Shown: in pieces, positions 24,316 to 60,236 of the stretch
How the letters are laid out: every line of letters begins with the position of its first letter
Numbering within the stretch: position 1 is the first letter of the stretch
NCBI RefSeq assembly: GCF_005144585.1
Contig: NZ_SSMQ01000001.1
Location: forward strand, 186,001-250,000
Origin: Polyangium fumosum
Lineage (GTDB): Bacteria; Myxococcota_A; Polyangia; Polyangiales; Polyangiaceae
DNA: 64,000 nt
Direction of reading: 5' to 3'
Translations under genes and position numbers: made by a program
The notes under the pieces: generated by a model
What the model saw: only the letters and a program-made list of their open reading frames with translations
What the model was told of the DNA's origin: nothing
Databases searched by the model: none

Positions 24316-24316
24316 C

Positions 24317-28362: not shown

Positions 28363-28854
28363 CGAGCGGGCCGCGTCACGTCGGCGCAGCGCGTGATTCT
28401 GTCGTGCGACAATGTGGGCCGTCCGGAGCGCTCTTTGCTTTCCGGTGTGGCCGTGCGGGCTGGCTTGCATCGCAGCGTCGAGCCCCGAACGTGCGATGGG
28501 CAAACGGTTCGGGTTCGTTTAGGATTCTCGGGACTGTATGCACGACGTCCTCCCTGCTTCGATCGATCTTCGGCGGGGGACCGAGGGCCATGTGTGCCGA
28601 CGCCCTCGCCGTGGGGAGGTTCGTCGTCGTGAGGCTCGAGGTGCGTCCTCGCCGGGGTGGGCGAGAAACACGCCATGCGGGCTACCTGGTGCGTCGCTTC
28701 GCCTCCTCGGGGTATATGCTGCTTCCCGGAGCGCGCCGCGCGGCGCGCTTCGAACGTTCGAGGAAGGTTCGAGGCTTTTCGCGGCACGTAAGGACAATGG
28801 ACCGCGACGAGGCCGATGGGCGGTCCCCAGGAGACGAGGTCGGGTTACGCGTCG
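28363..28854. other. Leader region of the PKS cluster
   Basis: 492 bp between the HTTM operon and the PKS cluster. No convincing gene; open frames here have the composition of GC-rich noise. It must hold the promoter of the four-gene PKS operon. A TATATG element at 28713-28718 could be a -10 box, but no good -35 box lies at the right distance. The two palindromes listed separately lie directly after it. Confidence 0.45.
28731..28761. promoter_or_regulatory. Candidate operator: two adjacent palindromes before PKS1
   Basis: A perfect 18-bp palindrome GCGCGCCGCGCGGCGCGC (28731-28748) is followed one base later by a perfect 12-bp palindrome TCGAACGTTCGA (28750-28761) and a direct repeat of GTTCGAGG. 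They lie about 95-125 bp upstream of the PKS1 start, just after a TATATG box. Position and symmetry suit a dimeric regulator site; the GC-only palindrome could be chance in such DNA. Confidence 0.4.
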
Positions 28855-40000: not shown

Positions 40001-41825
40001 GCTCGGCGCGATGATGCGCGCGCGAGGCATTCCCTGCGTGCTCGTCGAGGCGGGCGAGCGGTATGAGCGTGTCGACGCGACGACGTACCGGATCCAGCTC
40101 ACGAGCGCCGAGGATCATGTCGAGCTCTTGAAGGCGGTCTTCGACGAGAACACCGTTTGCGCGGGCGTCGTCCACCTGTTCGCCCTCGACGCGGTGCCGG
40201 TCGAGCGCGCGAGCGTGTCGACGCTGGAGGCCGATGGGGATCGCGTCGTTGGTAGCGCCTTGTTCCTCGTGCAGGCGCTCGTGCAGCGAGCCTTCCGCGA
40301 AGGGCCGCGGCTCGTCTTCGTGACCCGCGGGGCGCAGGCGGTCCTCGGCGACGTCGACGTCGTCTCTGTGGCCCAGGCGCCGCTCTGGGGGTTCCGCCGG
40401 ACGCTTGCCCTCGAGCACCCGGACCTCGACGGGAAACTCGTGGACCTCTCCCCCGAGGTCGATCCCCTCGACGTCGAGCGTCTCTGCCACGAGCTCTTCG
40501 TGAACGACAGCGAGAGCGAGGTCGCGCTCCGCGGGGAGCTGCGTCACGTCGCGCGCATGACCCACAGCTCGTTCGACGCCGCGCCGGCGCGAGGCCACGC
40601 GGTTCGTCCGGAGTCCTCGTACCTCATCACGGGCGGACTCGGCGGGCTTGGTTTGTCAGTTGCGCAATGGCTGGTGGCGCAGGGCGCCCGGCACGTCGCG
40701 CTCGTGGGCCGTCGTGCGCCCACGCCGGCGGCGCACGAGGCGATCGCGCGCTTACGCGAGGTAGGGGCAAACGTGGTCGTGCTGGAGGCCGACGTTTCCC
40801 GCGCGGCGGACGTCGATGCCGTCCTCGAGCGGGTACGCGCGGAGGCGCGACCGCTCGCGGGCATCGTGCACGCGGCCGGCGTCGTCGACGACCGGACGCT
40901 GCTCGATCTTTCACGCGACAAACTCGCGCGTGTGTTCGGACCGAAGATGCTCGGCTCGTGGAACCTGCACGAGCGTACGCGCGCCGAGCCGCTCGATTTC
41001 TTCGTGATGTACTCCTCGACGGCGTCTTTGCTCGGCTCGCCCGGTCAGGCGAATTATGCCGCGGCGAACGCGTTCATGGATGCGCTCGCGCACATGCGGG
41101 TCGCCGCCGGATTGCCGGCGACGAGCATCCACTGGGGCCCGTTCTCCGACGTGGGCATGGCGGCGCTGCGCGACAATCGTGGCCAGAGGCTCTCCAGCCG
41201 AGGCCTCGAGAGCCTGACGCCGGAGGAGGGCGCACGAGCGCTCGGGCTGATCCTCGCGCGTCCGCGCGCCGAGGTGGCCGTCATGCGGTTTTCCCCGCGG
41301 CGCTGGCTCGATTTTTACCCGCAGGCGGCGGCCTCTCCCATGTTCGCGGAGCTCTCCCGCGAGCGCGGGGGCGATGCGGCGGCGTCGGAGGCGCGAAGGC
41401 GATTGCGGGAGGAGCTCGAGCGCGTGACGCCCGCCGAGCGGGTCGAACAGCTCGCGGCGCACGTCCTCGGCGAGCTTGGGAAGGTGCTCCGTCAGGAGCC
41501 TCGTCAGCTCGACCCGCGCGCGGGGTTCTCGAGCCTCGGCATGGACTCGTTGATGGGCGTCGAGCTGCGCAATCGAATCGAAGCGACCCTCGGCATCAAG
41601 CTCGCGGCGACCATGCTCTACACGTACACGAGTCCCACGGCGCTCATTGACCATCTGGCCAGCCAGTTCGCCGCGCCGCCGAAGCGCGCGGTCGAGGCGC
41701 CGGCCGCGCCCCCGGCGCCTTCGCCTGCCGCAGAGCCGGCGAAGGAGGGGGCCGGCGGCGAGGACGACCTGCTCTCCGCGTTCGATGCGTCGCTGCGTGA
41801 AATCGAGGAGCAGAAACTGCGATGA
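37032..41825 (+). CDS. PKS2: type I PKS module 2 (KS-AT-KR-ACP)
   Basis: 1597 residues. An N-terminal docking helix (MQRAIMTIQKMRAKIENLER) is followed by KS (~52-473, DTACSSS, ETHGTGT, KTNIGH), AT (~577-896, GHSVGE with YAFH, so malonyl-CoA specific), a structural half-KR (~955-1190), KR (~1195-1430, TGGLGGLG, catalytic Tyr in QANYAAAN, motif VDD, expected B-type) and ACP (~1470-1540, GMDSL). The C-terminal docking tail reads LSAFDASLREIEEQKLR. There is no DH or ER, so the module leaves a beta-hydroxyl. GTG start overlapping the PKS1 stop by 4 bp. It extends the module 1 product with malonate. Confidence 0.95.
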   Translation: MTTRRPDASQSMTTQHDDDAPPASGLSSMQRAIMTIQKMRAKIENLERVRVEPIAIIGMGCRFPGGANTPEAFFELLKQGVDAITEVPPERWGLGADPSTDPEARAVRWGAFLRDVDLFDARFFNISPREASKMDPQQRLLLEVTWEALERAGQLPERLVGSRTGVFLGIMNNDYAELSAIAGIEQEDAYTTTGNGHCFPAGRISYTFGFQGPSMAVDTACSSSLVAIHLACQSLRSGECNMAVAGGVNLMLVPSTTRKYARTQALSPDGRCKTFDATANGFVRGEGCGMVVLKRLSDAERDGDTIVALIRGSAVNQDGRSTGLTTPNVLAQQAMLTQALESSRIAPSDIGYVETHGTGTSLGDPIEMEALTRVFGHPREAGSVCALGAVKTNIGHLESAAGVAGLIKSALVLQNGLIPKNIHFRTLNPRIQLDRTPFVIPTEPRPWRAALKRRVAGVSSFGMSGTNAHVVVEEFAQSAEEDLTPEASSYLLPLSAKSPEALRAHASAFRDYLTSTQDVSFRDVVHTASLRRSHFEYRISAVGRTREELARSLDAFLGGEVGGGLATGKSTPARAKVVFVFSGQGAQWLGMGRKLYEEESAFRSVIDSCDALLTPRLGWSLLDELDTTESMSRLNETQVAQPLIFSIQIALVELLRSWGVAPDAVIGHSVGEIAAAYIAGILSLDEAVRLVAIRGRIMNKATGLGKMVAVAANPDVARQAIAGYEDRLAIAAVNDPGSVVLSGQTVALDEVVAKLEREGVSCRPLRVNYAFHSPQMEPLATELVERLVRVTARRATLAMYSTILSECVEGKELDARYWGRNVQDTVQFAGAVDAAIHDGYQLFLEVGPHPVLAANVEQCLAMRKAAGLVAFTLRRNQDERRSLLEATGALYTRGCAPEWARLAPSGGKCVPLPTYPWQRQRYWLELPEDAPFAAVGRKGKSDAPTTQSAQDDMVFGLAWRAAPAAVDANCASARVGTWMVLCDERGTGRALGAMMRARGIPCVLVEAGERYERVDATTYRIQLTSAEDHVELLKAVFDENTVCAGVVHLFALDAVPVERASVSTLEADGDRVVGSALFLVQALVQRAFREGPRLVFVTRGAQAVLGDVDVVSVAQAPLWGFRRTLALEHPDLDGKLVDLSPEVDPLDVERLCHELFVNDSESEVALRGELRHVARMTHSSFDAAPARGHAVRPESSYLITGGLGGLGLSVAQWLVAQGARHVALVGRRAPTPAAHEAIARLREVGANVVVLEADVSRAADVDAVLERVRAEARPLAGIVHAAGVVDDRTLLDLSRDKLARVFGPKMLGSWNLHERTRAEPLDFFVMYSSTASLLGSPGQANYAAANAFMDALAHMRVAAGLPATSIHWGPFSDVGMAALRDNRGQRLSSRGLESLTPEEGARALGLILARPRAEVAVMRFSPRRWLDFYPQAAASPMFAELSRERGGDAAASEARRRLREELERVTPAERVEQLAAHVLGELGKVLRQEPRQLDPRAGFSSLGMDSLMGVELRNRIEATLGIKLAATMLYTYTSPTALIDHLASQFAAPPKRAVEAPAAPPAPSPAAEPAKEGAGGEDDLLSAFDASLREIEEQKLR

Positions 41826-44800
41826 GCGGGTCGGCATCCGTGGACGAATATCGCGCCCGGCTCCGGGAGGCGCTTGCGGTTATCAACGATTTGAAAGCGC
41901 GCGTCCAGGCAGCCGAGCGCGCGCGGGTCGAGCCGATTGCGATTCTCGGAATGGGGTGCCGGTTTCCCGGCGGCGGGGAGGGGCCGGAGGCCTTTCGCGA
42001 GGCGCTCCGCCGCGGCGTGGATGCGGTGCGCGAGATCCCGGCGACGCGCTGGCCCGCGTGGATGGTGCCGAAGGACCGACCCGAGGTGCGTCACGCAGCG
42101 CTCCTCGACGATATCGACGGGTTCGACGCCGCCTTTTTCGGCATCTCGCCGCGAGAGGCACAGAGCCTGGATCCGCAGCAGCGCCTCCTGCTCGAAGTGG
42201 TGTGGGAGGCGCTGGAGGACGGCGGGCAACGCCCCGACGCGCTCATGGGCAGCCGTACGGGCGTCTTCGTCGGGATCGGGACGCTCGATTATCAGCAGCG
42301 CATCGTTTCCGTCGGGCCGGGGGCCCTCGACACGTATTCGGCCACGGGGAACCTCGGGAGCACGGCGGGAGGCCGGCTCGCCTTCACGCTCGGCCTCGTC
42401 GGGCCTTGCATCACCGTGGACACGGCATGCTCGTCGTCGCTCGTCGCGACACACCTCGCCTGCCAGAGCTTGCGGAGCGGCGAGTGTGACGTCGCGATCG
42501 TGGCCGGCGCCAATGCGCTGGTATCGCCCTTCACGATGACCATGCTTTCGCACATGCGGGCGCTGTCGCCGGATGGGCGCTGCAAGACGTTCGACGCGCG
42601 GGCAAACGGCTACGTGCGGGGCGAGGGGTGCGGGGTCGTGATCCTGAAACGCGCCTCGGACGCGCGCCGGGACGGCGATCGCATTCGCGCGTTGATCCGG
42701 GGCTCGGCGGTGAATCAGGATGGGCGGTCGACCGGTCTGACGACGCCGAACGTGCTCTCCCAGCAGGCGCTCCTGCAGCAGGCGCTCGCGAATGCGCGGC
42801 TCACGCCTTCGCAGATCGGGTTCATCGAGGCGCACGGGACCGGGACCCCGCTGGGAGATCCCATCGAGCTCGACGCGCTGCGGGCCGTGTTCGGCGAGCC
42901 GCGCCCGGACGGATCGACGTGCGTGATCGGCGCTGTCAAGACGAACATTGGTCACCTGGAGGGGGCGGCCGGGATCGCGGGCCTCATCAAGGCGGCGCTG
43001 GCGCTCGAATACGAGGAGATCCCCGGGAATCTGCATTTCCGCGTGCTCAATCCGCGATGCGACATCGAGGGGACACCCTTCGTCCTGCCGACGGGGCCCG
43101 TGCCCTGGAAGAGGGGAATGGCGCCTCGTTTCGCGGGCATAAGCTCGTTCGGGATCAGCGGGACGAACGCGCACGTCATCCTGGAAGAGGCGCCGATCGA
43201 GCCCGAGCCGACGCGGCCGTCGCCGCCCGTCGGACCGTTTTTGCTTCCGCTCAGCGCGAAGAGCTCGGGGGCGCTCCTCGCGCTCTCGAAGAAATACGCC
43301 GCGTGGATTGGATCGAAATCGGAGGAGGCGCTCTCCGACGTCACGCAAACGGCGAGCGAGCGCAGGGCTCATCACGAGTATCGCCTCGCGGTCGTGGGAC
43401 GTACGAGCGCCGAGGTCGCGGAGGCGCTCGCCTCCTACGCGGATGGGCAGGTTCGTCCGGGCGTCGCGCAGGGGCGCGTGCCGGTGCAGGGCGCGCCGAA
43501 GGTCGTATTCGTGTTCCCGGGTCAGGGCTCGCAATGGCTGGGGATGGGCCGGCAGCTCCTCGCGGAGGATCTCGCGTTTCGTCAGGCATTGGAGGCTTGT
43601 GACGCGGCGATTCGCGCCGAGGTTGGTTTCTCGGTCCTCGCGGAGCTCGCCGCGGATGAGGCGAGCGCGCGCCTCGGTGACATGGCCGTCGTGCAGCCGC
43701 TCCTGTTCGCGATCGAGGTCGCCCTCGTGGCCACGTGGCGCTCCTTCGGCGTCGAGCCCGATGTCGTCGTGGGCCATAGCATGGGCGAGGTAGCGGCGGC
43801 GCACGTCGCAGGCATCCTGAGCCTCGCGGATGCGGCGAAGGTGATTTGCCGGCGGAGCCGGCTCCTCAAGCGCGTGAGCGGCAAAGGAGCCATGGCGCTC
43901 GTGGAGCTCACGATGGCGGAGGCGGAGCAGGCGCTCGGGACGCGGGCCGCTCGCCTCGGCATTGCGGCCCAGAATGGGCCTCGCTCGACCGTGTTGTCCG
44001 GGAACGCCGACGCGCTCGAAGAGGTTCTCGCCGAGCTTGGCAAGCGCGGCGTGTTTTTCCGCCGGGTGAAGGTCGACGTCGCCTCGCACAGCCCCGAGGT
44101 CGATCCCTTGCTCGGCGAGCTGCGGGAGGCGCTCGCGGAGGTGCGGCCGGGCCCGGCCGCGATTTCGATGCGCTCGACGGTGACGGGCGGGCTGCTCGCT
44201 GGTCCCGAGCTCGACGCGGGCTACTGGGTGCGGAACCTGCGTGAGCCGGTGCGGCTCTCGCAGGTCACGAGCGCGCTCCTCGGGGCGTCGCCATGTGTGT
44301 TCGTGGAAATCAGCCCGCACCCGATCCTCGTGGCGTCGATCGAGGAAAACCTGCACGAGGCGAACCGGGAGGGCGCGGCCATCGCCTCGCTCCGGCGAGA
44401 GTCGAACGAGCGGCGCGCCATGCTGGAGGCGCTGGCCGCTTTGTACACGCACGGCGTGAGCGTGCGGTCGGCCCCGCTCGACGCCGCGCGCCGGCCGATC
44501 GTGCCTCTGCCCTCCTATCCGTTTCAGCACGAACGATACTGGATCGAAATCGGGGAGCGACGCGGCCGCGCCGCTGCCGCTGCCGGCGCACATCCGCTCC
44601 TCGGCGCGCGCGTCTCCCCCGCGGCCGCGCCGGAGATCCATTGCTGGGAGGTGTGGATCGACGTGAAGTCGTTCCCCTATCTCGCGGACCACCGTGTCCA
44701 GGGGGAGATCGTGTTCCCCGGCGCGGGATACGTGGAAATGGCGCTCGCGGCGGCGGCGGAGGTTCTCGGTGAGAATGCGGCGCTGCTCGAGGATCTCTCG

Positions 44801-47800
44801 TTCGAGCAGATGCTCGCGCTGCCCTCCGAGGGCGGCCGCGTCGTGCAGGTGACGCTGATCCAGGAGGGCGGGGGTGCGGCGAGGGTCGTCATTGCGAGCC
44901 GTGAAGAGGGCGCGACGACGTGGGTGACGCACGCGCAGGGCAAGCTCCGCGTGGCCTCGGCGTCGGCCGTCGAGGTCGAATCGCGTCGCGCCGTCGAGGA
45001 GCGGTGCCCGACGCTTTTCGAGGGAGTGGAGCATTATGCGCGCATGGAGGCGCGCGGGCTCTCGTACGGCGAGCGCTTCCAGGGCGTCGTCCGGGGTCGC
45101 ATGGGGGAAGGCGAGGTCGTCGCGTCGGTGCAAATGCCGGCGGGCCTCGACGGGGATGCGGAGGGCCATCGTCTGATGCCCGCGCTTCTCGACGCGTGTT
45201 TTCAGGCGGCGGCCTGGGCGATCGGGTCCTGGGTTTCTGGAAAGGAACCGTTTGTCCCCGTCAGCGTCTCGCGCGTCTCCGCGCACGGGCGTCTCGGTCG
45301 CGCGGTGTGGGTGCATGCGCGCCTCCTCGGCGGGGAGCGCGATGGCGCGCCGAGGCTATCGCTCCGCGTGATGGACGAGCGTGGCGCCTTGCGGGTCGAG
45401 ATCGGCGAGCTCCGCCTGCAGCGCCTCCTTTCGAGCGCGGAGCAGGCGCGTGACCCTCTGGAGGGTTGCTCTTATGTCGTGGAATGGCGGAGGAAGGATC
45501 TCGAGCGAAGGCAAGCGCCTGCCGTCGCGGCCGCGAGCGGCGCCTGGCTCGTGATCACGGACGCTGGAGGCAGGGGGGAGGCGATCGCGCGGCTCCTCCG
45601 GGAGCGCGGTGATGCCTGCGTCGAGGTCGCCCGTGGGCCGGGTCGGGAGCGGCTCGGACCGTCGGAATATCGGATTGACGTCACCGATCCGGACGCGCTG
45701 CGCTGGATGCTCGCCGAGGCGTTCGGCGGCCAGCGCGCCTGTCGTGGCGTCGTTTGCATGCAAGCGCTCGACGCCGCGCCGTGGAAGGACACGACCGCCG
45801 ATTCCCTCGGTGCCGACCTGCGCGGCGGCCTGCTCGGGACGCTGCGGGTGACGCAGGCTATCCTGCGCCACGGATTCAGGGATCGACCGAAGCTCTTCCT
45901 CGTGACGTGCGGCGCGCAGGCGGCAGGGCGGGACGCGCGCTCCCTCGCTGTGTCGCAATCGCCCTTGTGGGGGTTTGGCAGGACGCTCGCCATCGAGAAC
46001 CCCGAGCTCGAATGCACGCGGATCGATCTGCCGGCGCAGCCGGGCGAGGACGACGCCGCGCGGCTCCTCTATGAAGTCGTCGAGGGCGACGGCGAGGACG
46101 AGATCGCGCTCCGGAGCGAAGGTCGTTACGTCGCGCGCCTCGTGCGCGCGGATCTCTCGGCGAAGGCGACGGAGGAGGCGGCCACGCGTCGGGAGCCCGC
46201 GGCCGGGAGGCCCTTCCGGCTGGAGATTCCCGAGCCGGGCGTGCTCGACCGATTCACGTTGCGCCCCGTGACGCGCAGGCAGCCCAGCCGGGGCGAGGTG
46301 GAAATCGAGGTCGAGGCGGCGGGCCTCAATTTCATCGACGTGCTCAAGGCCATGGGCATTTATCCCGGAATGGACGGGACGGCGCCGCTGCTCGGCGGGG
46401 AATGCGCCGGGCGGATCGTGGCGGTGGGCGAGGGTGTGGAGGGCCTGCACCCCGGGCAGGAGGTCATCGCGGCTGTGATGGGCGCGTTCGCGACGCACGT
46501 GGTCGCGAAGGCAGCGTTCGTCGTTCCGAAGCCGCCGGGGCTCTCGTTCGAGCAAGCAGCGGCGATTCCTGGCGTCTTCACGACGGTGCATTATGCGCTG
46601 CGGGACGTGGGGCGCGCGCGCCGAGGCGAGCGGATTCTCGTGCATTCGGCGACGGGCGGCACGGGGCTCGCGGCTATCGTGGTGGCGCGGGCGCTCGGCC
46701 TCGAGGTCTTTGCCACGGCGGGCAGTGAGGAGCGGCGCGCGTACCTGCGCGCGATGGGCATCGAGCACGTGATGGACTCGCGGTCGCTCGGATTTGCGGA
46801 CGAGATCATGCGCACCACGCGCGGAGCCGGCGTGGACCTTGTCCTGAACTCGCTGACGGGCGAGGCGATCGTCAAAGGGCTCGAGGTGCTCGCGCCCTAC
46901 GGGAGGTTCCTCGAACTCGGCAAGCGCGATATTTACGACAACCATCGCCTCGGGCTCCTGCCCTTCAAGAAGAGCCTGTCGTACACGGCCATCGATCTCG
47001 CCGGCATGAGCGTGGACGCCCCCGATACCTATGCGAGGCTGCTCCGGGAGGTCGTCGCCTCGCTCGAGGACGGGACGTACGCACCCCTGCCGATCGAGGT
47101 CCTGCCCGTGTCCCACGCGGACGAGGCGTTCCGTCGGATGGCGCAGGCGCGGCACATCGGCAAGCTCGTCGTCCGGATGCGGGACGCAGAGGCGCAGGTC
47201 GACGCGACGCGTGCGTCCGCCGTGGCCGTGCGGGGCGACGCGACATATCTCCTTACGGGCGGCCTCGGCGGTCTTGGCCTTTCCTTGTCGCAGTGGCTCG
47301 TGGATCGAGGGGCGCGGCACCTCGCGCTCGTGGGTCGCAGCGAGCCGTCCGAGGAGGCACGACAGATCCTTCAATCGATGCGGGACGCCGGAGCCGACGT
47401 GCGTACGTTCCGCGTCGACGTTTCGAATCGCGCGGCTGTGGAGGGGTTGATCGAGGCGGTGGAGCGGGACATGCCGCCCTTGCGCGGTATCGTGCACGCG
47501 GCGGCGGTGCTCGCCGATCGGACGGTCGTGGAGATGGGCGAGGCCGAGCTTTTCCTGCCGCTGGCCCCGAAGGTCCTCGGCGCGTGGAACCTGCACGCGG
47601 CGACCCGCGGCCGTGGCCTCGACATGTTCGTGCTTTATTCGTCGGCGGCCGGTCTGCTCGGAAATCCGGGGCAAGCGAGTTATGCCGCCGGGAACGTGTT
47701 CATGGACGCCCTCGCGCGCGCCCGCGTGGCGGAGGGGTTGCCGGGCATGAGCATTCAATGGGGGCCCTTCGCGGACGTTGGACTCGCGGCGGCCGAGGAC

Positions 47801-48448
47801 AAACGCGGCAAGCGCCTCGCGACCCGCGGCATCGAGAGCTTGACGCCCGAGGAAGGGACGCGGCTCTTCGGTCGGCTCCTCGAGCGCTCCTTTGCGGAGA
47901 TCGGGCTGTTCAAGCTGTCGATGCGCCAGTGGCTCGAATTCTATCCGCAGGCCTCGGGGCTCAGCTTTTTTTCCGACCTCGAGCGCGAAGGCGACAAGCA
48001 CGGCCCGGAAAAACCATCGGGCTTTCGCGAGGCCATCGTGCAGGCCGGGGCCGCCGAGCGGACGTCGATGCTCGAAGCGCACGTCATCGAGCAGATCGCG
48101 CGCGTGCTACGGATGGACGCCTCGCGCATCGATCGCCGCGCGCCCTTCGCGAGCCTGGGTATGGACTCCTTGACGAGCCTGGAGCTGCGGAACCGGCTGG
48201 AAGCGAGCCTCGGAGAGCGGCTCTCGGCGGCGCTCCTGTTCACCTATTCCACGCCAGCCGCGCTCGCGGTCCACCTCATCGAGCGGATGGGCCCGTCGAG
48301 CCCGGCCGCGCCGGTCGTCGCGGAAGTGCCGCCTGCGCCTGCGCCTGCTCTCGCCCGCGACGAGGTCGCGGAGGGGACGATCGACGACGATATTCTTTCG
48401 GCGTTCGACGCGTCGCTTTTGCGCGTCAAGGCGGAGAATCTGCGATGA
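41822..48448 (+). CDS. PKS3: type I PKS module 3 (KS-AT-DH-ER-KR-ACP)
   Basis: 2208 residues. N-terminal docking helix EYRARLREALAVINDLKAR, KS (~37-456, DTACSSS, EAHGTGT, KTNIGH), AT (~560-880, GHSMGE and VASH, methylmalonyl-like), DH (~922-1205, intact LADHRVQGEIVFPG and ALLDACFQ), half-KR, ER (~1467-1786, ATGGTGLAA), KR (~1806-2043, TGGLGGLG, catalytic Tyr in ASYAAGN, motif LAD instead of LDD) and ACP (~2077-2150, GMDSL). All reductive domains look active, so a fully reduced alpha-methyl unit is expected. The C-terminal tail ILSAFDASLLRVKAENLR matches that of PKS2. The start overlaps the PKS2 stop by 4 bp (ATGA). Confidence 0.95.
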   Translation: MSGSASVDEYRARLREALAVINDLKARVQAAERARVEPIAILGMGCRFPGGGEGPEAFREALRRGVDAVREIPATRWPAWMVPKDRPEVRHAALLDDIDGFDAAFFGISPREAQSLDPQQRLLLEVVWEALEDGGQRPDALMGSRTGVFVGIGTLDYQQRIVSVGPGALDTYSATGNLGSTAGGRLAFTLGLVGPCITVDTACSSSLVATHLACQSLRSGECDVAIVAGANALVSPFTMTMLSHMRALSPDGRCKTFDARANGYVRGEGCGVVILKRASDARRDGDRIRALIRGSAVNQDGRSTGLTTPNVLSQQALLQQALANARLTPSQIGFIEAHGTGTPLGDPIELDALRAVFGEPRPDGSTCVIGAVKTNIGHLEGAAGIAGLIKAALALEYEEIPGNLHFRVLNPRCDIEGTPFVLPTGPVPWKRGMAPRFAGISSFGISGTNAHVILEEAPIEPEPTRPSPPVGPFLLPLSAKSSGALLALSKKYAAWIGSKSEEALSDVTQTASERRAHHEYRLAVVGRTSAEVAEALASYADGQVRPGVAQGRVPVQGAPKVVFVFPGQGSQWLGMGRQLLAEDLAFRQALEACDAAIRAEVGFSVLAELAADEASARLGDMAVVQPLLFAIEVALVATWRSFGVEPDVVVGHSMGEVAAAHVAGILSLADAAKVICRRSRLLKRVSGKGAMALVELTMAEAEQALGTRAARLGIAAQNGPRSTVLSGNADALEEVLAELGKRGVFFRRVKVDVASHSPEVDPLLGELREALAEVRPGPAAISMRSTVTGGLLAGPELDAGYWVRNLREPVRLSQVTSALLGASPCVFVEISPHPILVASIEENLHEANREGAAIASLRRESNERRAMLEALAALYTHGVSVRSAPLDAARRPIVPLPSYPFQHERYWIEIGERRGRAAAAAGAHPLLGARVSPAAAPEIHCWEVWIDVKSFPYLADHRVQGEIVFPGAGYVEMALAAAAEVLGENAALLEDLSFEQMLALPSEGGRVVQVTLIQEGGGAARVVIASREEGATTWVTHAQGKLRVASASAVEVESRRAVEERCPTLFEGVEHYARMEARGLSYGERFQGVVRGRMGEGEVVASVQMPAGLDGDAEGHRLMPALLDACFQAAAWAIGSWVSGKEPFVPVSVSRVSAHGRLGRAVWVHARLLGGERDGAPRLSLRVMDERGALRVEIGELRLQRLLSSAEQARDPLEGCSYVVEWRRKDLERRQAPAVAAASGAWLVITDAGGRGEAIARLLRERGDACVEVARGPGRERLGPSEYRIDVTDPDALRWMLAEAFGGQRACRGVVCMQALDAAPWKDTTADSLGADLRGGLLGTLRVTQAILRHGFRDRPKLFLVTCGAQAAGRDARSLAVSQSPLWGFGRTLAIENPELECTRIDLPAQPGEDDAARLLYEVVEGDGEDEIALRSEGRYVARLVRADLSAKATEEAATRREPAAGRPFRLEIPEPGVLDRFTLRPVTRRQPSRGEVEIEVEAAGLNFIDVLKAMGIYPGMDGTAPLLGGECAGRIVAVGEGVEGLHPGQEVIAAVMGAFATHVVAKAAFVVPKPPGLSFEQAAAIPGVFTTVHYALRDVGRARRGERILVHSATGGTGLAAIVVARALGLEVFATAGSEERRAYLRAMGIEHVMDSRSLGFADEIMRTTRGAGVDLVLNSLTGEAIVKGLEVLAPYGRFLELGKRDIYDNHRLGLLPFKKSLSYTAIDLAGMSVDAPDTYARLLREVVASLEDGTYAPLPIEVLPVSHADEAFRRMAQARHIGKLVVRMRDAEAQVDATRASAVAVRGDATYLLTGGLGGLGLSLSQWLVDRGARHLALVGRSEPSEEARQILQSMRDAGADVRTFRVDVSNRAAVEGLIEAVERDMPPLRGIVHAAAVLADRTVVEMGEAELFLPLAPKVLGAWNLHAATRGRGLDMFVLYSSAAGLLGNPGQASYAAGNVFMDALARARVAEGLPGMSIQWGPFADVGLAAAEDKRGKRLATRGIESLTPEEGTRLFGRLLERSFAEIGLFKLSMRQWLEFYPQASGLSFFSDLEREGDKHGPEKPSGFREAIVQAGAAERTSMLEAHVIEQIARVLRMDASRIDRRAPFASLGMDSLTSLELRNRLEASLGERLSAALLFTYSTPAALAVHLIERMGPSSPAAPVVAEVPPAPAPALARDEVAEGTIDDDILSAFDASLLRVKAENLR

Positions 48449-51400: not shown

Positions 51401-51735
51401 ATTCGCTCATGGGCATGGAGCTCGGCAAACGGCTCGAAGCGACCGTCGAGGTATCGTTGCCGGCGACGTTCCTATTCGCCTATCCTACCGTGGAAGCGCT
51501 CGCGGAGCACCTCCTCGGTCAGCTCGACGTGATGGGCCCTCCCGCGACGAACCCGGAGCCCGACATTTCGAGCTTTGCGCCCGTTGCACCGCCCGTCGAA
51601 GTGGCGCCTCTCCTTTCGTCGAAGCCGGCTCCCACGCAGGAAGAGCTCACGGAAGGCGAGGTTGCGGTCCTGCTCGAAGCGAAGCTCGACGCGCTGGAGC
51701 GCTGGCTCGGCCTGGGATCGCAGCCGCTGCGCTAG
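48445..51735 (+). CDS. PKS4: type I PKS module 4 (KS-AT-ACP)
   Basis: 1096 residues. N-terminal docking helix EYRSRLREALSVINELKSR (nearly the same as in PKS3), KS (~36-455, DTACSSS, ETHGTGT, KTNIGH), AT (~557-870, GHSVGE and YAFH, malonyl-specific) and ACP (~949-1025, VGVDSLMGMEL). No reductive domain is present, so the beta-keto group stays. The C-terminal tail EVAVLLEAKLDALER resembles that of PKS1, not those of PKS2/3. ATG overlaps the PKS3 stop by 4 bp. The gene ends in a 4-bp stop-stop overlap with PKS5 on the other strand; no terminator hairpin is seen between them. Confidence 0.95.
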   Translation: MSALLEEYRSRLREALSVINELKSRLDTAERASVEPIAIIGMSCRFPGGGGGPDRFFDSLLRGVDAVGEIPPERWPKEAIPGDRPEVRWAALLDDLSGFDAEFFGIAPREAQSLDPQQRLLLEGAWEALEDAGTRPDTLSGSKTGVFVGICASDNQHRVLIRGTDQFDMYCATGNAYSTAAGRISFVLGLQGPCMSIDTACSSSLVAVAEGCHSLRAGDSDLVIAAGVNVILSPLAMALLAGTQALSPDGRSRAFDARANGFVRGEGCGVLVMKRLSDAMRDGDRIQAVIRGWAVNQDGRSTGLTTPNVLSQKALLRRALERARLAPSDIGFVETHGTGTPLGDPIEMEALREVLGAPRPDGSACVLGAVKTNIGHLEGAAGVAGIIKAVLAMRHECIPRNQHFRRLNPRISLDGTCFVLPTENVPWPHGDKPRRAGVSSFGISGTNAHVILEEPPPEATAERPRAEGAHWLVLSARSKAALPELAGAYAERLSTASDGELADITYTASVRRVHHEHRLAVTGRTRQELSEQLFAFARGEVSPSLSQGSTSPHGDPKVVMVFSGQGSQWAGMGQDLRGEVVFWKKLEECETILRRYVSWSLLEELAAPEALSRLGETEVVQPALFSLQVSLTELYASWGIVPGAVVGHSVGEIAAAHVSGALSLEEALRLAVYRGRTMQKATGFGKMMAVEIDRERAERVLSDYEQQLSIAAVNAPNSVVLSGEGAALDAVAARLEAEGVPCRSLRVNYAFHSPQMEPLKRELVQALGRIEAGPTRIPMFSTVTGARIDGRDLGADYWGDNMRQPVLLSRATQAAIEGGGGLLFEVSPHPVLTANLRQCVAAQGEKVDVVYTLKRQADGRRAALDALGALHVRGCSVHWGALHGGRGRSVSLPAYPWQRARHWLDVDFVASSLGDAGDAKAHVATPSPPERGARGPASFRATLAMALPGERRELVQVHVARQLGLVLGQDPHRIDPRAPFSSVGVDSLMGMELGKRLEATVEVSLPATFLFAYPTVEALAEHLLGQLDVMGPPATNPEPDISSFAPVAPPVEVAPLLSSKPAPTQEELTEGEVAVLLEAKLDALERWLGLGSQPLR

Positions 51736-54700
51736 GCCGGAGGTTCAGCGCGGGCTGGCTCGGCGAGAATGCGACGCAGGATCGCCGAAAGCTCGCGCAC
51801 GTATGGCTCGAAGATCAGATTGAAGTGCGTGCCCGTCGTGTCGTGGATGTCCACGGGATAGGGTGACAGTGCGTCCCAGCCATACGCCAGACCGAGTCCC
51901 TCCAGCGATTGGGCCAGCCCGCCGGCCACCGTTCCGCGGGAGCGTATCAACGTGATGCGTCCGGACCAGGGCTTCAGGCGATAGGTGCGCAATGCCGCGT
52001 TGTGCGCAGCGACTACGGCTTGGAGCCGGTTCGATTCGCTGACGTCGTCGGGCAGCATGGCGGAGGTCGCCACGGCGCGCGCGATGTGGCGTGCTTGCTC
52101 GTCCGGGCCGAGGGACGAGAACATGGGATCGTCCGTGTAGCCGAGCCAGACCGCGAGCAGTTCCAGGAGCGACCCTTCGCGCCCGGCGACGGCCGCGGGG
52201 ATGTCGATGATGACGAGGCGCTCGACCTCCTCGCCTTCCTTCGTGAGCTGTTGTGCCATTTCGTAGGCGACGTAGGCGCCGAACGAATACCCGCCGATCT
52301 TGTACGGACCTCTGGGCTTCACGCTCCGGACGGCCTGCACGTACAGGGCGGCCATTTCCTCGATGCGATCGATCGGAGGCTCGTCGAGGTCGACGCCGCG
52401 CGCCTGGAGCCCGTAAAATGGCTGGTCGGGGCCCAGGTGGACGGCGAGTGTCTTGAAGACGAGGGCCATTCCATAGCCCGGGTGTACGCAAAAAAATGGC
52501 TCCTGCCTGCCCGTCGATCGTAATGGCAGCAGCGGGGAATACGCCCAGGGCCGGGAAAGGCCGGCGGCCTCCCTTGCGTGCGGGATCGGTAGCAGCCTCG
52601 ATGCGAGGTGCTCCACGAGGGCAGAGACACTCGCATGTTCGAGCGTGACGCTCGCCGGGAGCGGCACGCCGAGGGCTCGCCCGAGGGCGGTGGCGAGCTG
52701 TACGCCCGCAATGGAGCCGAGCCCCAGGGAATCGAACGGCGCGTCGATTGCGACCGCGTCGAGCTCGTGTCCGAGCAGATGCGCAACCTGCTCCCGCACG
52801 AAGGTCGTGAGCAGCCGCCGGCCCGCCTGTGCCCCGGCGCGCGGGAGCCGATCGAGGAGGAACTCCGTGCCGCGGCGTCTGGCGTCGGAAGAGCCGTCGA
52901 TTTCCCCCTGCTCCGCATCCATCCCCACGGCCGTCGCCGCCACCAAGCCGCTTTGGCCCATGGATCGATCGAGGGCCGCGCGGAGCGCGTCTCCCGAGAG
53001 CGGCGCGAGTCCCTCGTCCCACGCGGCTGCCGCGTCTCCGGGCGGCACGGCGTGCACGCTATGCGCGCGAAGCCCTTTGCTCCGTCGAAGGAAGGCCAGC
53101 GCGTCCGCGATCTCCTCGGCGAGGACCTCGTACGCGGAGCCCTTCGCTCCGCCGAGGGAAGACGCGGTGGAGAGGAGAACGAATTCAATCGAAGGATCCT
53201 GCGTCAGCTCGTCGAGGACGACACCTGCCAGCGCGCTTCTGCGCACCAGGGTCTCGAAGGCCTGCGCGGCGCTCGGATCGAGCGGCGAATACCGCTCTGC
53301 CCATCCGTGATCGGCGTGCACCACGCCCGCGAGGGGGGCGTCGAGGCGCGCGAGGAGCGATTGCATGGCGTGCCGATCACAAGCGTCCGCCGATTCAACG
53401 CAGATCCGTGCGCCGAGCGCTTCGATTGCGCGCAAGGTGTCCACGGGGAGCTGCGCGTCTTTCTGGCGGCTCGAATCCACGAGCACGAGCGAGCGCGCGC
53501 CCCGCTCGACGAGCCACCGCGCGGCGCAGAGGCCGAGCCATCCGAGCCCTCCCGTCACGAGGTACGTTCCCTCGGGGCGCAGCGAGAGGGGGTTGTCCGA
53601 AAGAGGAGCTCGCAGCCGCGACAAACGCGTGCAGAGCCTCGTGCCGCCGCGGAATGCCATTCGATCTTCGTGGTCGTCTTGCGCGAGCGCCTGCGTGAGG
53701 TGCTCCACGTCGGCGGCGCTCGGCTCCGGATCGAGGTCGATTGAGCCTCCCCAGAGCCCCGGCGTTTCGAGCGCCAGCGCGCGACCGAGGCCGAGCAACG
53801 CCGCCGCCCCGAGCGAACCCGGCGGACCCGAAATGGCCTCGGCGCCCCGGGTCACGAACCAGAAGCGCGGAGGTCGCTCGTGGCTCGACGCAATCGTCGC
53901 CAGGTTGCGCGTGGTGACGAGCACGCGCATCCAGGCCTCGAGGGGCGCCTCTGCATGCATGGCGTCGAGGCTCCAGAGGTGTATGACGTCCGTGATGGAG
54001 CGATTGAGAGCGAGCACCACGTCGAGCCGCTCCGGCGCCTGCTCGAGCTCGTCACGGGTGAAAATCGTGCATGCGTGACCGCGCGCGAGCCAATGCTCCC
54101 GCGCCGCCTGCGCGAGGCCGCTCCGATCGGCGAGAATCAACCCATGGCGCTTCGGTGCCGTCTGTGCCGGTTCCGTGAGAGGTCGCGCGATCCAGGTGCG
54201 CTCGTGGAGAATGCGCGGGGCCGGATCCTTGCCCGACTCACGCAAGATGTCGAAAGGATGGGCGGCCGTGAGCGCGAGGCCACGAATCTCCGCGATCGTC
54301 GTCCCATCCGTGTCGAGCCACGCGCCATCGACGGTCGCCTCCTCGGTATCGAGCCGCGTCCATACCAGCCGGAGCCACGTGGCCGAGGTGATGTTCGCGC
54401 CGTGCTGCAGGTGATCGAAGGAGCGAGCGCTCCAGGGCACGCCGGTCGCGGCTCTGTGCGTGCTCGACGCGAGCGCGATCGCGGCATGGACGAGATCCCG
54501 GGCGATCGCACCGGGGTTCGTCTCGGTGATGATGATGCGGGCGAGGCTCGACCGCTCCGCGGCGCCGACGCGCTCGTAATGAAAACCACGGGGAGACAGG
54601 CCGTTTCGCGCGAGGCGCCGGCGCATGAGGCTCGCTGGGATTTCGACGAGGTCGTCGAACCGCGGCGGTTCGTGCGCGGGCGCAGGGAGCGCAGCCTTCT

Positions 54701-57524
54701 TCGCGGCGAGGGTCCCGGTCGCAATGCGCAGGAAGGGGGCGCCAGCGTGACTTCGGTGGTAAAATCGAATGAGCGTCGCGCCGCCCTCCGCTGGCTCGAC
54801 GTGGGTCTGCAAAACCCCGCCGTCCTCGGCGAGGACGAGCCGCTCGACGGCGAGGCGCAAGGGACGGTCGTCATCGTCGGCTGATCGCGCGAGGCTCGCG
54901 AGCGCCCCCAGGGACAGGACATCCACGAAGGCGAGGTGGTGCCTCCCAAGGCGGTCGATCGCGGCCGCGTCGAGCGTGCGCTCGAATCCACGGAGCAACG
55001 GCTGGTGTGCGAAGGGGACGAGCGGTCGACCGAGGAGCGATTGGCCCTCGGAGAAAGGCGTCTCGGCATTCGTGCGGTTCGCTGGGGCGCGCAGCCAAAA
55101 TCGCTTTCGATCGAAGGGATACGTAGGCAGCCGGACGCGGCAGAGGTCGTACCCCTGGTGAATGTGTTGCCAATCCAGCGCGACGCCCCGCGTATAAAGC
55201 AGCCCGAGGGCGGAGAGGAGCACGTCCGCATCGGGCCTTCCTTCCTGCAAAGAGGCCACGGCCGAAGGGAGGAAGGGGCTTCTGGGAACGTCCGTGTTCG
55301 AGGGAGCGGGCTGCGGACCGAGCTCCAAGATTGCAGCGAAATCACGTGCATCGATGGCGGCGCCGGGCGCGCGGACGGGGGTCCCGGCGCGTGCCCAGGC
55401 CCTCCAGCCTTCGAGGTCGGCGGGGAGGCCGTCGGGCCGCGATGCGAGGTGCAGCGCCGTCCGCGGAGGCTCGAAGCGAATCGGCTCGATCGTCTCTTCG
55501 AGCGGGACCGCGTTTTCCCACGCGAGCAGCAGTGAGATGGCCTCTTCGAGCCGCAAAATGCCCGCGAGGTGGGCCGCGAGGACCTCGCCGCTGCCCTCTC
55601 CGAGCGACGCGCTCGGGTAGACACCCCACGAGCGAAGGAGCTGCGCGACGGCGTATTGCAGGACGAAGCATCGCTGCCCCGGGGGGGACGTCGATTCCTC
55701 TCCATTTTGCGTGAAGGTCGGGGCCACGTCGCGGCCGAGCCTGGCCCGGAGCGCCTCCTCGCAGGTGACCACGGCCTGGCGGAAGACGGGCTCCTTCTCG
55801 TAGAGAGCGCGACCGACGTGGGCCGCGACGGAGCGCTGGTGCGGGCAGGAAAAACCAATCCGGGGCTTTCGCGTGCTGCGCGGCGCGACGCCGCTCGATG
55901 CGTCCCGCGGGATCCCGCCCGCGGCGACGACGGCAAGGTCGTCGAGTAGTTTGTCCGGTGAACCGACGAGGAGCACGAGGCGGTGCTCGAAATGGTTCCG
56001 TCCGACGGCGGCTGTGTAGCAGGCGTCGTCCACGCGGATGTCGGGGTGCTCGGCGAGGTGTGCGCGTAGCCGCTCCGCCGAGGCGCGGAGCGCGGCCGAA
56101 GTGCGGGCGGAGAGCGGCAGGAGATTCGTCTGCGCGCGCAGAGGCCGCTCGTCGCGTCTCGGGGCCGGGGCTTCCTCGACGACCACGTGTACGTTCGTGC
56201 CGCTGAGGCCGGACGCGCTCACGCCGGCAATTCGTGGGGATTCGCCGCGCTTCCAGGGGACTTCGGCGACGGGGATGGTGAACGGCGTATCCGCGAGGGA
56301 GATCCGCGGATTCAGCTTCTCGAAATGGAGATTGGGCGGGATGGCCTCGTGCTCCAGCGCGAGCACCGCCTTGACGAGGCCGGCGACGCCCGAGGCCGCT
56401 TCGGCGTGGCCGATGTTCGTCTTCAGCGATCCGAGGACGCACGTCGATCTGTCGGGTCGCGCGGCGCCGAGCACGGCGCGAAGCGCCTCGGCCTCGATGG
56501 CGTCGCCGAGGGGCGAGCCATTGCTGTGCATCTCCACGTAGCCCACGCGCGTAGGCGCCACGCGCGCCTCGCCGAGCGCGAGGCGCAGCGCCATGACCTG
56601 CGCGCTCACGCTCGGCGCCGTGGGGCTCTGCGCCCGCCCATTGTGGACGACGGCGGAGCCGCGCACGATGGCTCGTATGGGATCCCGCTGGCGCAAGGCA
56701 TCCGAGAGCCGGCGCAGGACGACGATCCCGCACCCTTCGGACCGAACGTATCCATCGGCCGCGGCGTCGAAGGTCCTGCACTTGCCCTCGGACGACAGGA
56801 TTTGTAGCGAGGAGAGCAGGTTCGAACCGCGCGGGTCGAGGATGAGGTTTACGCCCCCGGCGAGCGCGAGATCACACTCGCCGTCTCGCAATGCCCGGCA
56901 GGCGGCATGAACGGCCGCGAGGGCCGAGGAGCAGGCCGTATCGATACAAAGACTTGGCCCCCGCAAGTCGAGCAGGTGCGAGATCCGGCCCGCCGCGAGC
57001 GGCACGGCCGTGCCCGTGGCCAGGAGCCCCTCCGGTTCGTCGGACGCGGCGGACGACAGGCGCTCGTAATCGTGCAGCGTGATCCCGACGTAGACGCCCG
57101 TGCGGCTCCCTTCGAGCGAGGCGGCGGGGATGGTTGCGTCTTCCAGCGCCTCCCAGGCGACCTCGAGCAGGACCCGCTGCTGGGGATCCATGGCGGAGGC
57201 CTCGGCTGGGGGCAGGCCGAAGAACTCGGCGTCGAACTGGTCCACGCCGTCGAGGAGGCCCGCCCAGTGGGCGGCGGGGTGGGGCGCGGCGCTTGCAGTC
57301 CAGCGCTCTGGGATCGTCGAGCGGATGCCGTTCGTCCCGTCGCGCAGCTTTCGCCAGAACGTCTCAGGGTCGATGCCTCCGCCGGGCAAACGGCATGCGA
57401 TTCCGACGATCGCGATGGCCTCATTTTTGGCCCGCTCGGCTTCGGCGAGCCGCACCTCCATCTGCTCGAGCACGTGAAGCGCGCGCCCGAGAAGGGAAGC
57501 GGAATCCGCGCGACCGTGCGTCAC
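51732..57524 (-). CDS. PKS5: degenerate terminal module with active-looking thioesterase (KS-AT*-DH*-KR*-ACP-TE)
   Basis: 1930 residues, on the opposite strand. N-terminal docking helix, KS (~35-452; Cys198 and both His kept, but EAHGTGT reads EMHSNGS), an AT remnant (~555-745) in which FSGQGSQW reads FSCPHQRS and GHSxGE reads GEGSGE, so the catalytic Ser (Gly644) and His (Glu643) are gone and the C-terminal half is missing, a DH remnant (~828-1090) without HxxxGxxxxP, a KR (~1318-1500) with TGGLGWLG and Tyr1465 but Ala1469 for the catalytic Asn and no LDD, an ACP (~1575-1645, Ser1604 in GLGSIAG), and a type I TE (~1672-1930) with Ser1747 (GYSFG), Asp1774 and His1900, an ideal triad spacing. 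It probably off-loads the chain by hydrolysis or cyclisation. Confidence 0.93.
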   Translation of the reverse strand: MTHGRADSASLLGRALHVLEQMEVRLAEAERAKNEAIAIVGIACRLPGGGIDPETFWRKLRDGTNGIRSTIPERWTASAAPHPAAHWAGLLDGVDQFDAEFFGLPPAEASAMDPQQRVLLEVAWEALEDATIPAASLEGSRTGVYVGITLHDYERLSSAASDEPEGLLATGTAVPLAAGRISHLLDLRGPSLCIDTACSSALAAVHAACRALRDGECDLALAGGVNLILDPRGSNLLSSLQILSSEGKCRTFDAAADGYVRSEGCGIVVLRRLSDALRQRDPIRAIVRGSAVVHNGRAQSPTAPSVSAQVMALRLALGEARVAPTRVGYVEMHSNGSPLGDAIEAEALRAVLGAARPDRSTCVLGSLKTNIGHAEAASGVAGLVKAVLALEHEAIPPNLHFEKLNPRISLADTPFTIPVAEVPWKRGESPRIAGVSASGLSGTNVHVVVEEAPAPRRDERPLRAQTNLLPLSARTSAALRASAERLRAHLAEHPDIRVDDACYTAAVGRNHFEHRLVLLVGSPDKLLDDLAVVAAGGIPRDASSGVAPRSTRKPRIGFSCPHQRSVAAHVGRALYEKEPVFRQAVVTCEEALRARLGRDVAPTFTQNGEESTSPPGQRCFVLQYAVAQLLRSWGVYPSASLGEGSGEVLAAHLAGILRLEEAISLLLAWENAVPLEETIEPIRFEPPRTALHLASRPDGLPADLEGWRAWARAGTPVRAPGAAIDARDFAAILELGPQPAPSNTDVPRSPFLPSAVASLQEGRPDADVLLSALGLLYTRGVALDWQHIHQGYDLCRVRLPTYPFDRKRFWLRAPANRTNAETPFSEGQSLLGRPLVPFAHQPLLRGFERTLDAAAIDRLGRHHLAFVDVLSLGALASLARSADDDDRPLRLAVERLVLAEDGGVLQTHVEPAEGGATLIRFYHRSHAGAPFLRIATGTLAAKKAALPAPAHEPPRFDDLVEIPASLMRRRLARNGLSPRGFHYERVGAAERSSLARIIITETNPGAIARDLVHAAIALASSTHRAATGVPWSARSFDHLQHGANITSATWLRLVWTRLDTEEATVDGAWLDTDGTTIAEIRGLALTAAHPFDILRESGKDPAPRILHERTWIARPLTEPAQTAPKRHGLILADRSGLAQAAREHWLARGHACTIFTRDELEQAPERLDVVLALNRSITDVIHLWSLDAMHAEAPLEAWMRVLVTTRNLATIASSHERPPRFWFVTRGAEAISGPPGSLGAAALLGLGRALALETPGLWGGSIDLDPEPSAADVEHLTQALAQDDHEDRMAFRGGTRLCTRLSRLRAPLSDNPLSLRPEGTYLVTGGLGWLGLCAARWLVERGARSLVLVDSSRQKDAQLPVDTLRAIEALGARICVESADACDRHAMQSLLARLDAPLAGVVHADHGWAERYSPLDPSAAQAFETLVRRSALAGVVLDELTQDPSIEFVLLSTASSLGGAKGSAYEVLAEEIADALAFLRRSKGLRAHSVHAVPPGDAAAAWDEGLAPLSGDALRAALDRSMGQSGLVAATAVGMDAEQGEIDGSSDARRRGTEFLLDRLPRAGAQAGRRLLTTFVREQVAHLLGHELDAVAIDAPFDSLGLGSIAGVQLATALGRALGVPLPASVTLEHASVSALVEHLASRLLPIPHAREAAGLSRPWAYSPLLPLRSTGRQEPFFCVHPGYGMALVFKTLAVHLGPDQPFYGLQARGVDLDEPPIDRIEEMAALYVQAVRSVKPRGPYKIGGYSFGAYVAYEMAQQLTKEGEEVERLVIIDIPAAVAGREGSLLELLAVWLGYTDDPMFSSLGPDEQARHIARAVATSAMLPDDVSESNRLQAVVAAHNAALRTYRLKPWSGRITLIRSRGTVAGGLAQSLEGLGLAYGWDALSPYPVDIHDTTGTHFNLIFEPYVRELSAILRRILAEPARAEPPA

Positions 57525-57671
57525 GTCACCGCCATGAGGGGAAAGCGAAAGAGCGCTCGAGGGGCAACGCGTCGGTGCATGACTCGTTGGCGCTCATCTT
57601 CCGAAGGAACGTGGGATCTACCGCGGTCACGTGGGCATCGGCGGTCGTGAGCGATGACGACCGGCGACGAT

Positions 57672-58112
57672 CTACGGCAGCGTCCAGCCGGCCTGCAGGG
57701 CGTTGCGCGACATCTCGGAGTTGTAGTTGGCCCACCACTCCCGGAGGTACGAACTCGCCGGACCCTGGTGCTCGGCCGAGATGTGGGGCACGACTTCGGC
57801 GTGCACGGTGACCGCGTTCCACGTGGCGTACCAGATCATGGCGAGGAGGTTCTCGCCCTGGGAGATCTGCGAGGGAACCACGGCACCCATGTACGTCGCC
57901 AGGGCTTCGGTGCCCTTGTTGTCGAGCTCCTCCGCCATCATGGCGTGCAGGCTCATGAGGAACTGCTCGAGGTCTGCGGCAGTGTACCGGATCCGGACGT
58001 TCGGATCTTTTTGCGCACGGTCGGCCATGGCCTGCGCCACGACCTTGATCTTGGACCTGAAGACAGACAGCAGCTCAGTTGCCCACGCTTCCATGACAGC
58101 GACCCGTAGCAT
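57672..58112 (-). CDS. Small helical protein, paralogue A, upstream of PKS5
   Basis: 146 residues from the ATG at 58112 (MLRVAVMEAW; an alternative ATG lies at 58094). All-helical, soluble, no signal. It aligns by eye over its length with the protein at 58735-59184: shared positions include DLxQ, MxExLxxK, YxxxVxP and GExL. The pattern recalls the helical sensor domains found at the N-terminus of RsbR-type stressosome proteins, but no family can be asserted. It lies 147 bp upstream of PKS5 on the same strand and could be co-transcribed with it. A weak promoter-like CCGACA-18 bp-TATTTC sits about 50 bp upstream. Confidence 0.65.
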   Translation of the reverse strand: MLRVAVMEAWATELLSVFRSKIKVVAQAMADRAQKDPNVRIRYTAADLEQFLMSLHAMMAEELDNKGTEALATYMGAVVPSQISQGENLLAMIWYATWNAVTVHAEVVPHISAEHQGPASSYLREWWANYNSEMSRNALQAGWTLP

Positions 58113-60161: not shown

Positions 60162-60207
60162 GAGGCCCTCCTGGCGCGTGGGCGTTATGCCAATGATTCC
60201 AGCATCG

Positions 60208-60236
60208 AGTAGACCCGAGAAAAACCTCGAAGTCAA
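60208..60236 (-). promoter_or_regulatory. Sigma70-type promoter of the terpene synthase gene
   Basis: On the minus strand TTGACT (complement of 60231-60236) and TCTACT (complement of 60208-60213) are separated by 17 bp, matching 5/6 and 4/6 of the consensus. The start site would fall near 60201, giving a ~40-nt leader with the AGGAGGG ribosome-binding site. Confidence 0.6.

Follow-up and report, generated by a model that had tools for sequence, protein, structure and literature searches.

The locus described here raises the question of what is contributed by a last PKS gene that lies inverted with respect to its neighbours and codes for a module in which the AT, DH and KR are dead and the ACP and thioesterase (TE) are intact. 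The window, by which we mean the whole stretch of 64,000 nucleotides that was analysed, corresponds to positions 186001-250000 of a contig in a 12.98-Mb genome, and its features are presented in Table 1. PKS1-PKS4 are all encoded on the plus strand and each overlaps the next gene by 4 bp. PKS5 is a single open frame with a GTG start, tail-to-tail with PKS4. The preliminary description of this DNA had stated that PKS5 faces the other four PKS genes and overlaps PKS4 by 4 bp, and this was confirmed, the overlap being one palindromic CTAG (51732-51735) which contains both TAG stops. AT domains were present in PKS1, PKS2, PKS3 and PKS4 alike. Among the five PKS proteins a TE was found only in PKS5, and domain search found none in PKS1-4.

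Table 1. Features of the PKS locus in window coordinates
Feature	Position	Strand	Remarks
PKS1, ACP-KS-AT-AT-DH-ER-KR-ACP	28816..37035	+	Starter protein, tandem AT
PKS2, KS-AT-KR-ACP	37032..41825	+	Domain search
PKS3, KS-AT-DH-ER-KR-ACP	41822..48448	+	Domain search
PKS4, KS-AT-ACP, 1096 aa	48445..51735	+	Last active-looking extension module; putative C-terminal docking tail
PKS5, terminal protein KS-AT-DH-KR-ACP-TE (AT, DH and KR dead), 1930 aa	51732..57524	-	Convergent with PKS4
PKS5 N-terminal docking region (putative), aa 1-33	57426..57524	-	Aligns into N-terminus of CurL (class 2 type)
PKS5 KS, aa 34-455	56160..57425	-	Cys198, His333, Lys368, His373 present; HSNGS in place of HGTGT
PKS5 AT (dead), aa 549-760	55245..55880	-	Gly644 at catalytic Ser position; 88 residues over His region absent versus active ATs
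PKS5 DH (dead), aa 821-1100	54225..55064	-	No DH Pfam match; His aligned to catalytic Asp
PKS5 psiKR/KR (dead), aa 1101-1500	53025..54224	-	Lacks Lys and Asn
PKS5 ACP, aa 1570-1645	52590..52817	-	Ser1604 intact
PKS5 thioesterase, aa 1672-1925	51750..52511	-	Ser1747-Asp1774-His1900 intact

Catalytic residues of PKS5

The KS of PKS5 was reported to read EMHSNGS while keeping Cys198 and both His, and all of these were found (C198, H333 and H373, together with K368, and S334-N335-G336-S337 following H333). When compared with canonical KS motifs, the catalytic residues were kept in the window and the HGTGT motif was lost; in one congener (G001) the His was lost as well. The AT motif reads GEGSGE (G642-E643-G644-S645-G646-E647), with Gly644 at the Ser position, and the Pfam AT model matched PKS5 at just positions 14-117 of 319, scoring 36 bits against a cut-off of 32.7. 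The distance from the Ser position to the post-AT LPxYPF motif was 157 residues in PKS5 versus 245 in the extender-type ATs of the other proteins (the second one of PKS1 and those of PKS2-4), in which the His motif begins 102 residues after GHSxGE. The 88 residues that are absent span the His region, and the post-AT linker is retained. The AT has therefore lost both Ser and His as first described, and it is indeed shortened; the lesion is an internal deletion, however, and not a plain loss of the C-terminal half.

With respect to the remaining domains, no match to the Pfam DH model was obtained in PKS5 at E<=0.01. In a merged alignment, a His of the window was aligned to the catalytic Asp of the DH and another His to that of the HxxxGxxxxP motif, which refines the earlier statement that the catalytic motif is missing. 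Pyran-synthase-type DH domains were considered as a model for this domain and rejected, as the His kept in the window was Gln or Arg in the other five sequences aligned, leaving no conserved function. The KR gave a weak Pfam score of 97 bits versus 226-241 bits in PKS1-3. It was said to lack the Asn, and in the same alignment both Asn and Lys were absent from the window sequence, with the Tyr and a near-normal nucleotide-binding motif (TGGLGWLG) kept. The ACP and TE both scored above their Pfam cut-offs, and the ACP Ser (S1604) and TE triad (S1747, D1774 and H1900), described as intact, were present. Measured against a canonical terminal extension module, PKS5 lacks a functional AT (GHSxGE with its paired His) and possesses the ACP Ser and the Ser-Asp-His of the TE. 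Two AlphaFold models made from 5- and 6-row alignments were poor (mean pLDDT 36.8 and 52.6) and were set aside.

PKS5 homologues in congeneric genomes

The search for homologous clusters proposed in the preliminary description was run on 59 genomes, including that of the window and five congeneric genomes besides it (G001-G005). A full-length PKS5 homologue was found in four of these five (E=0), at the same locus; each is inverted like PKS5, its AT is dead in the same way and its KS motif is altered. Identity between the window protein and the other four was 38-40%, and that of the four among themselves 56-63%. All five genes, the window included, have open frames of 1930-1982 aa and are convergent with the penultimate PKS gene, the stops ranging from a 4-bp overlap to 37 bp apart. 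The number of modules ahead of PKS5 was four in the window, G002 and G004 and five in G001 and G005, and a KR was present in the penultimate module of G001, G004 and G005, but not in that of the window or G002.

A Ser-His pair was looked for in the AT of each of the five proteins. The Ser position was Gly in every case, no His was found at the expected place in the window or in the other four, and the domain was 78-88 residues shorter than in active modules. The four congeners also retain a recognizable, degenerate AT tail, which the AT model matched in three. In contrast to these losses, the ACP Ser and the TE triad were invariant in all five. The dead state of the DH and KR extends to a sixth sequence, that of G003 described below: the DH Asp was replaced by His or Arg in 6/6, the KR Asn was absent in 6/6 and the KR Lys in 4/6 (it is present in G001 and G002), and the KR Tyr was absent from the five sequences other than the window.

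HGTGT was replaced in the KS of all five homologues, by HSNGS in four (the window and three congeners) and by ASNGS in G001, in which the His is thus changed to Ala. Cys198, Lys368 and His373 were invariant and H333 was kept in four of the five. A DNA pattern of the E[VIM]HSNGS type was run on 183 genomes of the order and hit 14 sites, in 13 of the genomes; four of the 14 lay in a KS, and all four of these were PKS5. G001 falls outside this pattern because its His codon is changed. The altered KS motif is diagnostic of PKS5 in this order. In a KS tree of 73 rows (71 different), the five PKS5 KSs formed one clade with support of 100/99, in which the KS of the window had the longest branch (0.51). 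The tree comprised 33 KSs from the clusters and 40 from 27 loci chosen among 143, with at most three per locus and with shorter or weaker stretches left out; two short general patterns applied to contigs, from which records close to the window may be missing, gave at least 77 loci, 10 of which entered the tree.

Altered ATs were also seen elsewhere. In G001 (G001:C6:523691-531529) and G005 (G005:C110:83041-89838), module 2 carries tandem ATs, the first being full length but with GHGVGE (Ser to Gly) as its motif. Modules of loci L015 and L023 (G023) have an AT reading GHGAGE (Ser to Gly), whose match to the AT model is split in two by a gap, and in L015 no second AT was present between this AT and the DH.

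A fused terminal protein in the fifth congener

Inverted PKS5 was absent from the locus in G003. The terminal protein of this genome is co-linear with the other PKSs and has the order KS-AT-DH-KR-ACP-TE, with dead DH and KR and with HGTGT and GHSMGE intact. Its KS belonged to the penultimate-module clade (100/94), adjoining module 4 of G002 (99/69, an SH-aLRT of 69 being low), and its KS and AT were 80% and 81% identical to those of that module. The remainder of the protein, from the dead DH to the TE, aligned with PKS5. Over the DH, psiKR, KR, ACP and TE parts, identity of G003 was 36-51% with the four congeners and 29-38% with the window, and that between the window and the four was 27-43%. 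When a DH-KR-ACP-TE profile of the six sequences was scored in 177 genomes of the order, taking the best four candidates per genome, the six sequences scored 1527-1903 bits by construction. No seventh full-length match was found in the 177 genomes, the next best scoring 480 bits and ending before the TE.

The simplest reading of these results is that the release half of PKS5 was fused in G003 to an active KS-AT of the penultimate type, which would dispense with the dead KS-AT. The direction of this change is inferred. The six related genomes constitute a natural experiment in which five keep the dead KS-AT and one fuses the release half to an active KS-AT.

Selection on dead and kept domains

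To compare selection on the PKS5 domains, dN/dS was calculated (NG86 with Jukes-Cantor) as the mean of six pairs from four genomes (G001, G002, G004 and G005), with three pairs for the penultimate KR; the distant PKS5 of the window and the G003 protein lie outside these sets. For PKS5 the ratios were 0.28 for the KS, 0.44 for the N-terminal stretch of the dead AT that was matched by the AT model, 0.49 for the KR, 0.50 for the ACP and 0.34 for the TE. In the penultimate module the ratios were 0.17 for the KS, 0.40 for the AT (a set that mixes putative malonyl and methylmalonyl types), 0.41 for the KR and 0.26 for the ACP. Module 1, at 0.04-0.24, was far tighter than either. With borders set by hand, dS in PKS5 was 0.51-1.44 and pN/pS was 0.39 (KS), 0.65 (AT), 0.52 (DH), 0.66 (KR), 0.62 (ACP) and 0.53 (TE).

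By this rough comparison the dead domains are not in free drift, the dN/dS of the dead AT and KR being near that of the active penultimate module, and PKS5 as a whole is looser than module 1. The PKS5 ACP, with a ratio that exceeds that of its penultimate counterpart and is not below those of the dead domains, lends weak support to an active carrier and does not favour the reading proposed below. The PKS5 KS was likewise under less constraint than the penultimate KS. Recent decay in this strain alone was considered and rejected, as the dead state is common to five genomes and dN/dS among the congeners was below 1 in each PKS5 domain measured.

A species-variable segment

DNA identity between the window and each congener was determined per 500 bp from 25 kb onwards. 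It was 81-99% up to about 34 kb where the congener stretch was compared. Beyond this point it fell to 73-88% in G001 and G004, and stayed at or above 86% to about 37.5 kb in G002, G003 and G005. On the left, the extended matches broke off at 39.80-39.84 kb in all five comparisons (within 35 bp); since the AT of PKS2 ends at the same place, the break may equally reflect a domain border or a point of exchange. From there to 58.64 kb (G003 and G004) or 60.46 kb (G001, G002 and G005), identity was at the level of paralogues or absent, and PKS5, apart from its KS, resembled the congeners little at the DNA level. Beyond the right boundary mean identity was 89-96%, although G003 dropped to 74% near 60.0 kb. 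Flanking proteins were mostly 81-99% identical across the congeners, with the exception of two small proteins, one at 57672-58316 (26-48%) and one at 58681-59184 in G001, G002 and G005 (27-30%).

The identity profile and the flanking proteins place PKS5 within a species-variable segment of about 19-21 kb between conserved flanks, and this segment (39800-58640, or to 60464) looks like a cassette exchanged between species. More tentatively, the inverted dead module could serve as a fixed outlet for a PKS locus in which the downstream half is swapped between species as a cassette. A conserved starter half and style of release would then bracket variable modules (four or five before PKS5, with a final beta-group that is keto or hydroxy by domain content), and the dead KS would act as a permissive acyl relay through which different chains could use the same kind of release unit. 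Such a relay function would explain selection for a KS-AT that is chemically idle. If this possibility were true, G003 would indicate that recombination can also remove the dead KS-AT.

Proposed role in chain release

We consider it probable that PKS5 is a conserved non-elongating off-loading module, and it looks like a maintained release device, not a gene in decay. In the mechanism we propose, the N-terminus of PKS5 would dock on the C-terminal tail of PKS4, the finished chain would be transferred from the PKS4 ACP to Cys198 of the KS and then to Ser1604 of the PKS5 ACP with no malonyl unit added, and the TE would release it; the dead AT, DH and KR would be retained as structural scaffold. 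The HGTGT motif of a KS aids decarboxylation. An extender unit would not be added in PKS5 because no AT of this protein is able to load the ACP and because the KS motif is altered. As PKS5 would add none, the window line is predicted to carry out four extensions, not five. From the AT motifs VASH and YAFH, the units of the window line are presumably methylmalonyl, malonyl, methylmalonyl and malonyl, and the chain would end as a beta-keto acyl group.

As a separate observation on the start of the line, PKS1 (28816-37035) has an ACP at its N-terminus and two ATs in tandem; the first AT carries AAVH at the specificity motif in place of VASH or YAFH, which suggests an unusual starter unit.

For the docking step, residue 6 onward of PKS5 aligned to residue 10 onward of CurL, and the tails were judged by eye. 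The N-terminal helix of PKS5 appears to be of the CurL kind, and with the PKS4 tail it is a candidate class 2 docking pair, following the docking domain classes set out in the relevant part of a review (PMC9113145).

Alternative explanations

An unlikely alternative, and the one which survives best, is that PKS5 still extends the chain, with its ACP loaded in trans by a free-standing AT or that of another PKS and with the KS adding a fifth unit that is left as beta-keto because KR and DH are dead. Evidence against our own reading belongs here, as H333, K368 and H373 are all kept in the window alongside C198, so that its KS is not disabled by loss of the triad, and H333 is kept in four of the five homologues. 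Loss of the AT is nevertheless fixed in all five, as is replacement of HGTGT, with Ala for His in G001, and in G003 the release half is fused to an intact KS-AT, the dead one being dispensed with. Passage of the chain without extension and loading by an AT in trans had both been put forward in the preliminary description; of the two, non-extension is favoured and an AT in trans disfavoured, while the window KS does keep its Cys-His-His. The broader proposal that a full extender module has decayed into an off-loading platform is partly supported, non-extending off-loading being the best reading given its presence in five of six congeneric genomes (window included), the G001 KS without the decarboxylation His and the G003 fusion. 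Recent decay confined to this gene does not fit, as a whole clade shares the dead state and dN/dS in the dead domains is below 1.

There is a slim chance that PKS5 serves as a docking and TE platform only, with direct delivery of the chain by the ACP of PKS4 to the ACP or TE of PKS5 and a KS that acts as a dimerising scaffold. According to the part of the docking review that deals with pikromycin, class 2 docking domains at the PikAIII/PikAIV junction favour the shorter macrolide, which was read as better delivery to the PikAIV TE (PMC9113145). A KS used only as scaffold fits poorly with a Cys that is invariant in all five homologues and with a KS dN/dS of 0.28, the lowest of the five PKS5 domains measured.

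It is very unlikely that the KS of PKS5 performs chemistry of its own or releases the chain onto an amine or alcohol in the manner of the CalA3 KS, with the TE proofreading. CalA3 of calcimycin (PDB 7WVZ, 8I4Y and 8I4Z) is described in the sections of its report drawn on here as a terminal chain-release protein, KS-AT-DH-KR without ACP or TE, in which the AT Ser is Gly, the dead DH and KR are read as structural, and the KS keeps Cys-His-His and forms a C-N bond, releasing the chain (PMC10006239). PKS5 shares the dead AT (Ser to Gly), DH and KR and the intact Cys-His-His, and PDB searches with PKS5 and with its AT stub both retrieved CalA3 entries by sequence. However, PKS5 has the intact ACP and TE which CalA3 lacks, and the His proposed as the general base of CalA3 is lost in G001. 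Specific kinship was also rejected, as the AT stub matched 54 other PDB sequences besides CalA3 and the DH-KR part had 35 PDB matches at E<=0.001 with CalA3 not among them. CalA3 came first of 197 Foldseek matches (E<=0.001), a result which was discounted as the model had a mean pLDDT of 52.6.

It is barely credible that PKS5 should be a pseudogene in decay, with another exit for the chain, since the long branch of the window KS and the low DNA similarity to congeners outside the KS have to be set against open frames in all five homologues, dN/dS of 0.28-0.50 in the five domains measured and the lack of a TE in PKS1-4.

Comparison with known systems

The polyether PKSs of monensin and nanchangmycin are said to use a chain-transfer pair, KSX/ACPX, in which the KS moves the finished chain to a separate ACP before release by a TE. 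The route we propose for PKS5 resembles this relay; KSX and ACPX are discrete small proteins, however, whereas PKS5 is a full-length dead module with conserved inverted orientation. PikAIV of pikromycin is reportedly an active terminal module which is skipped part of the time, and when skipped it delivers the upstream chain to its own TE unextended, as PKS5 would. The difference is that PikAIV is active and PKS5 is without a working AT.

Non-elongating modules are a known feature of trans-AT lines, in which KS0 domains (e.g., of phthoxazolin) are defined by loss of the HGTGT His, to go by the portion of that report used here (PMC5764310). PKS5 is like the KS0-ACP modules of phthoxazolin in its altered HGTGT and in that the chain is presumed to be passed on unextended, but it belongs to a cis-AT line and has an AT remnant. 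The His that defines KS0 is kept in the window and in three other homologues and is lost in one of the five (G001). CalA3 is the nearest published structure in kind among those found, being likewise a terminal release module with Ser to Gly in the AT, dead DH and KR, and a KS with Cys-His-His. In contrast to CalA3, PKS5 has an ACP and a TE, its HGTGT motif is gone and its AT lacks an internal stretch. PKS5 would behave like a non-elongating module, yet it fits neither the KS0 nor the CalA3 family, failing in a defining feature of either.

In the portion of the angiolam report covered (PMC10913735), a TE is present in the last module and some domains are inactive, with a dead release module not reported there. 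No inverted, dead, TE-bearing terminal module was found in the parts of the open-licence literature that were searched. The earlier statement that such modules are rarely described requires qualification in that a dead terminal module has already been published in CalA3, albeit one without ACP or TE. As far as these sources extend, the new element is a cis-AT line with a conserved full-length dead module which still holds ACP and TE, a dead scaffold beside a working KS being already known (PMC10006239). The natural experiment of the six genomes makes testable the idea of a KS as a pure acyl relay, the contribution of the dead AT, DH and KR, and, for PKS engineering, where a PKS can be cut and rejoined. 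Counting every KS-ACP pair would mispredict such clusters by one extension.

Neighbouring genes

Directly upstream of PKS5 and on the same strand, 57672-58316 encodes a 214-aa protein with no Pfam match. Its homologues, at the 26-48% identity given above, lie beside the terminal PKS in G001, G002 and G003 and within the G005 cluster, and the G004 stretch compared yielded none. A terpene synthase family 2 gene (59181-60236) adjoins the locus and, within the congener stretches compared, had homologues in G003 and G004 only. Ahead of PKS1, 23218-28362 encodes tryptophan 2,3-dioxygenase-family, DCC1-like and HTTM-domain proteins, which were 84-99% identical to those of the congeners where this region was compared.
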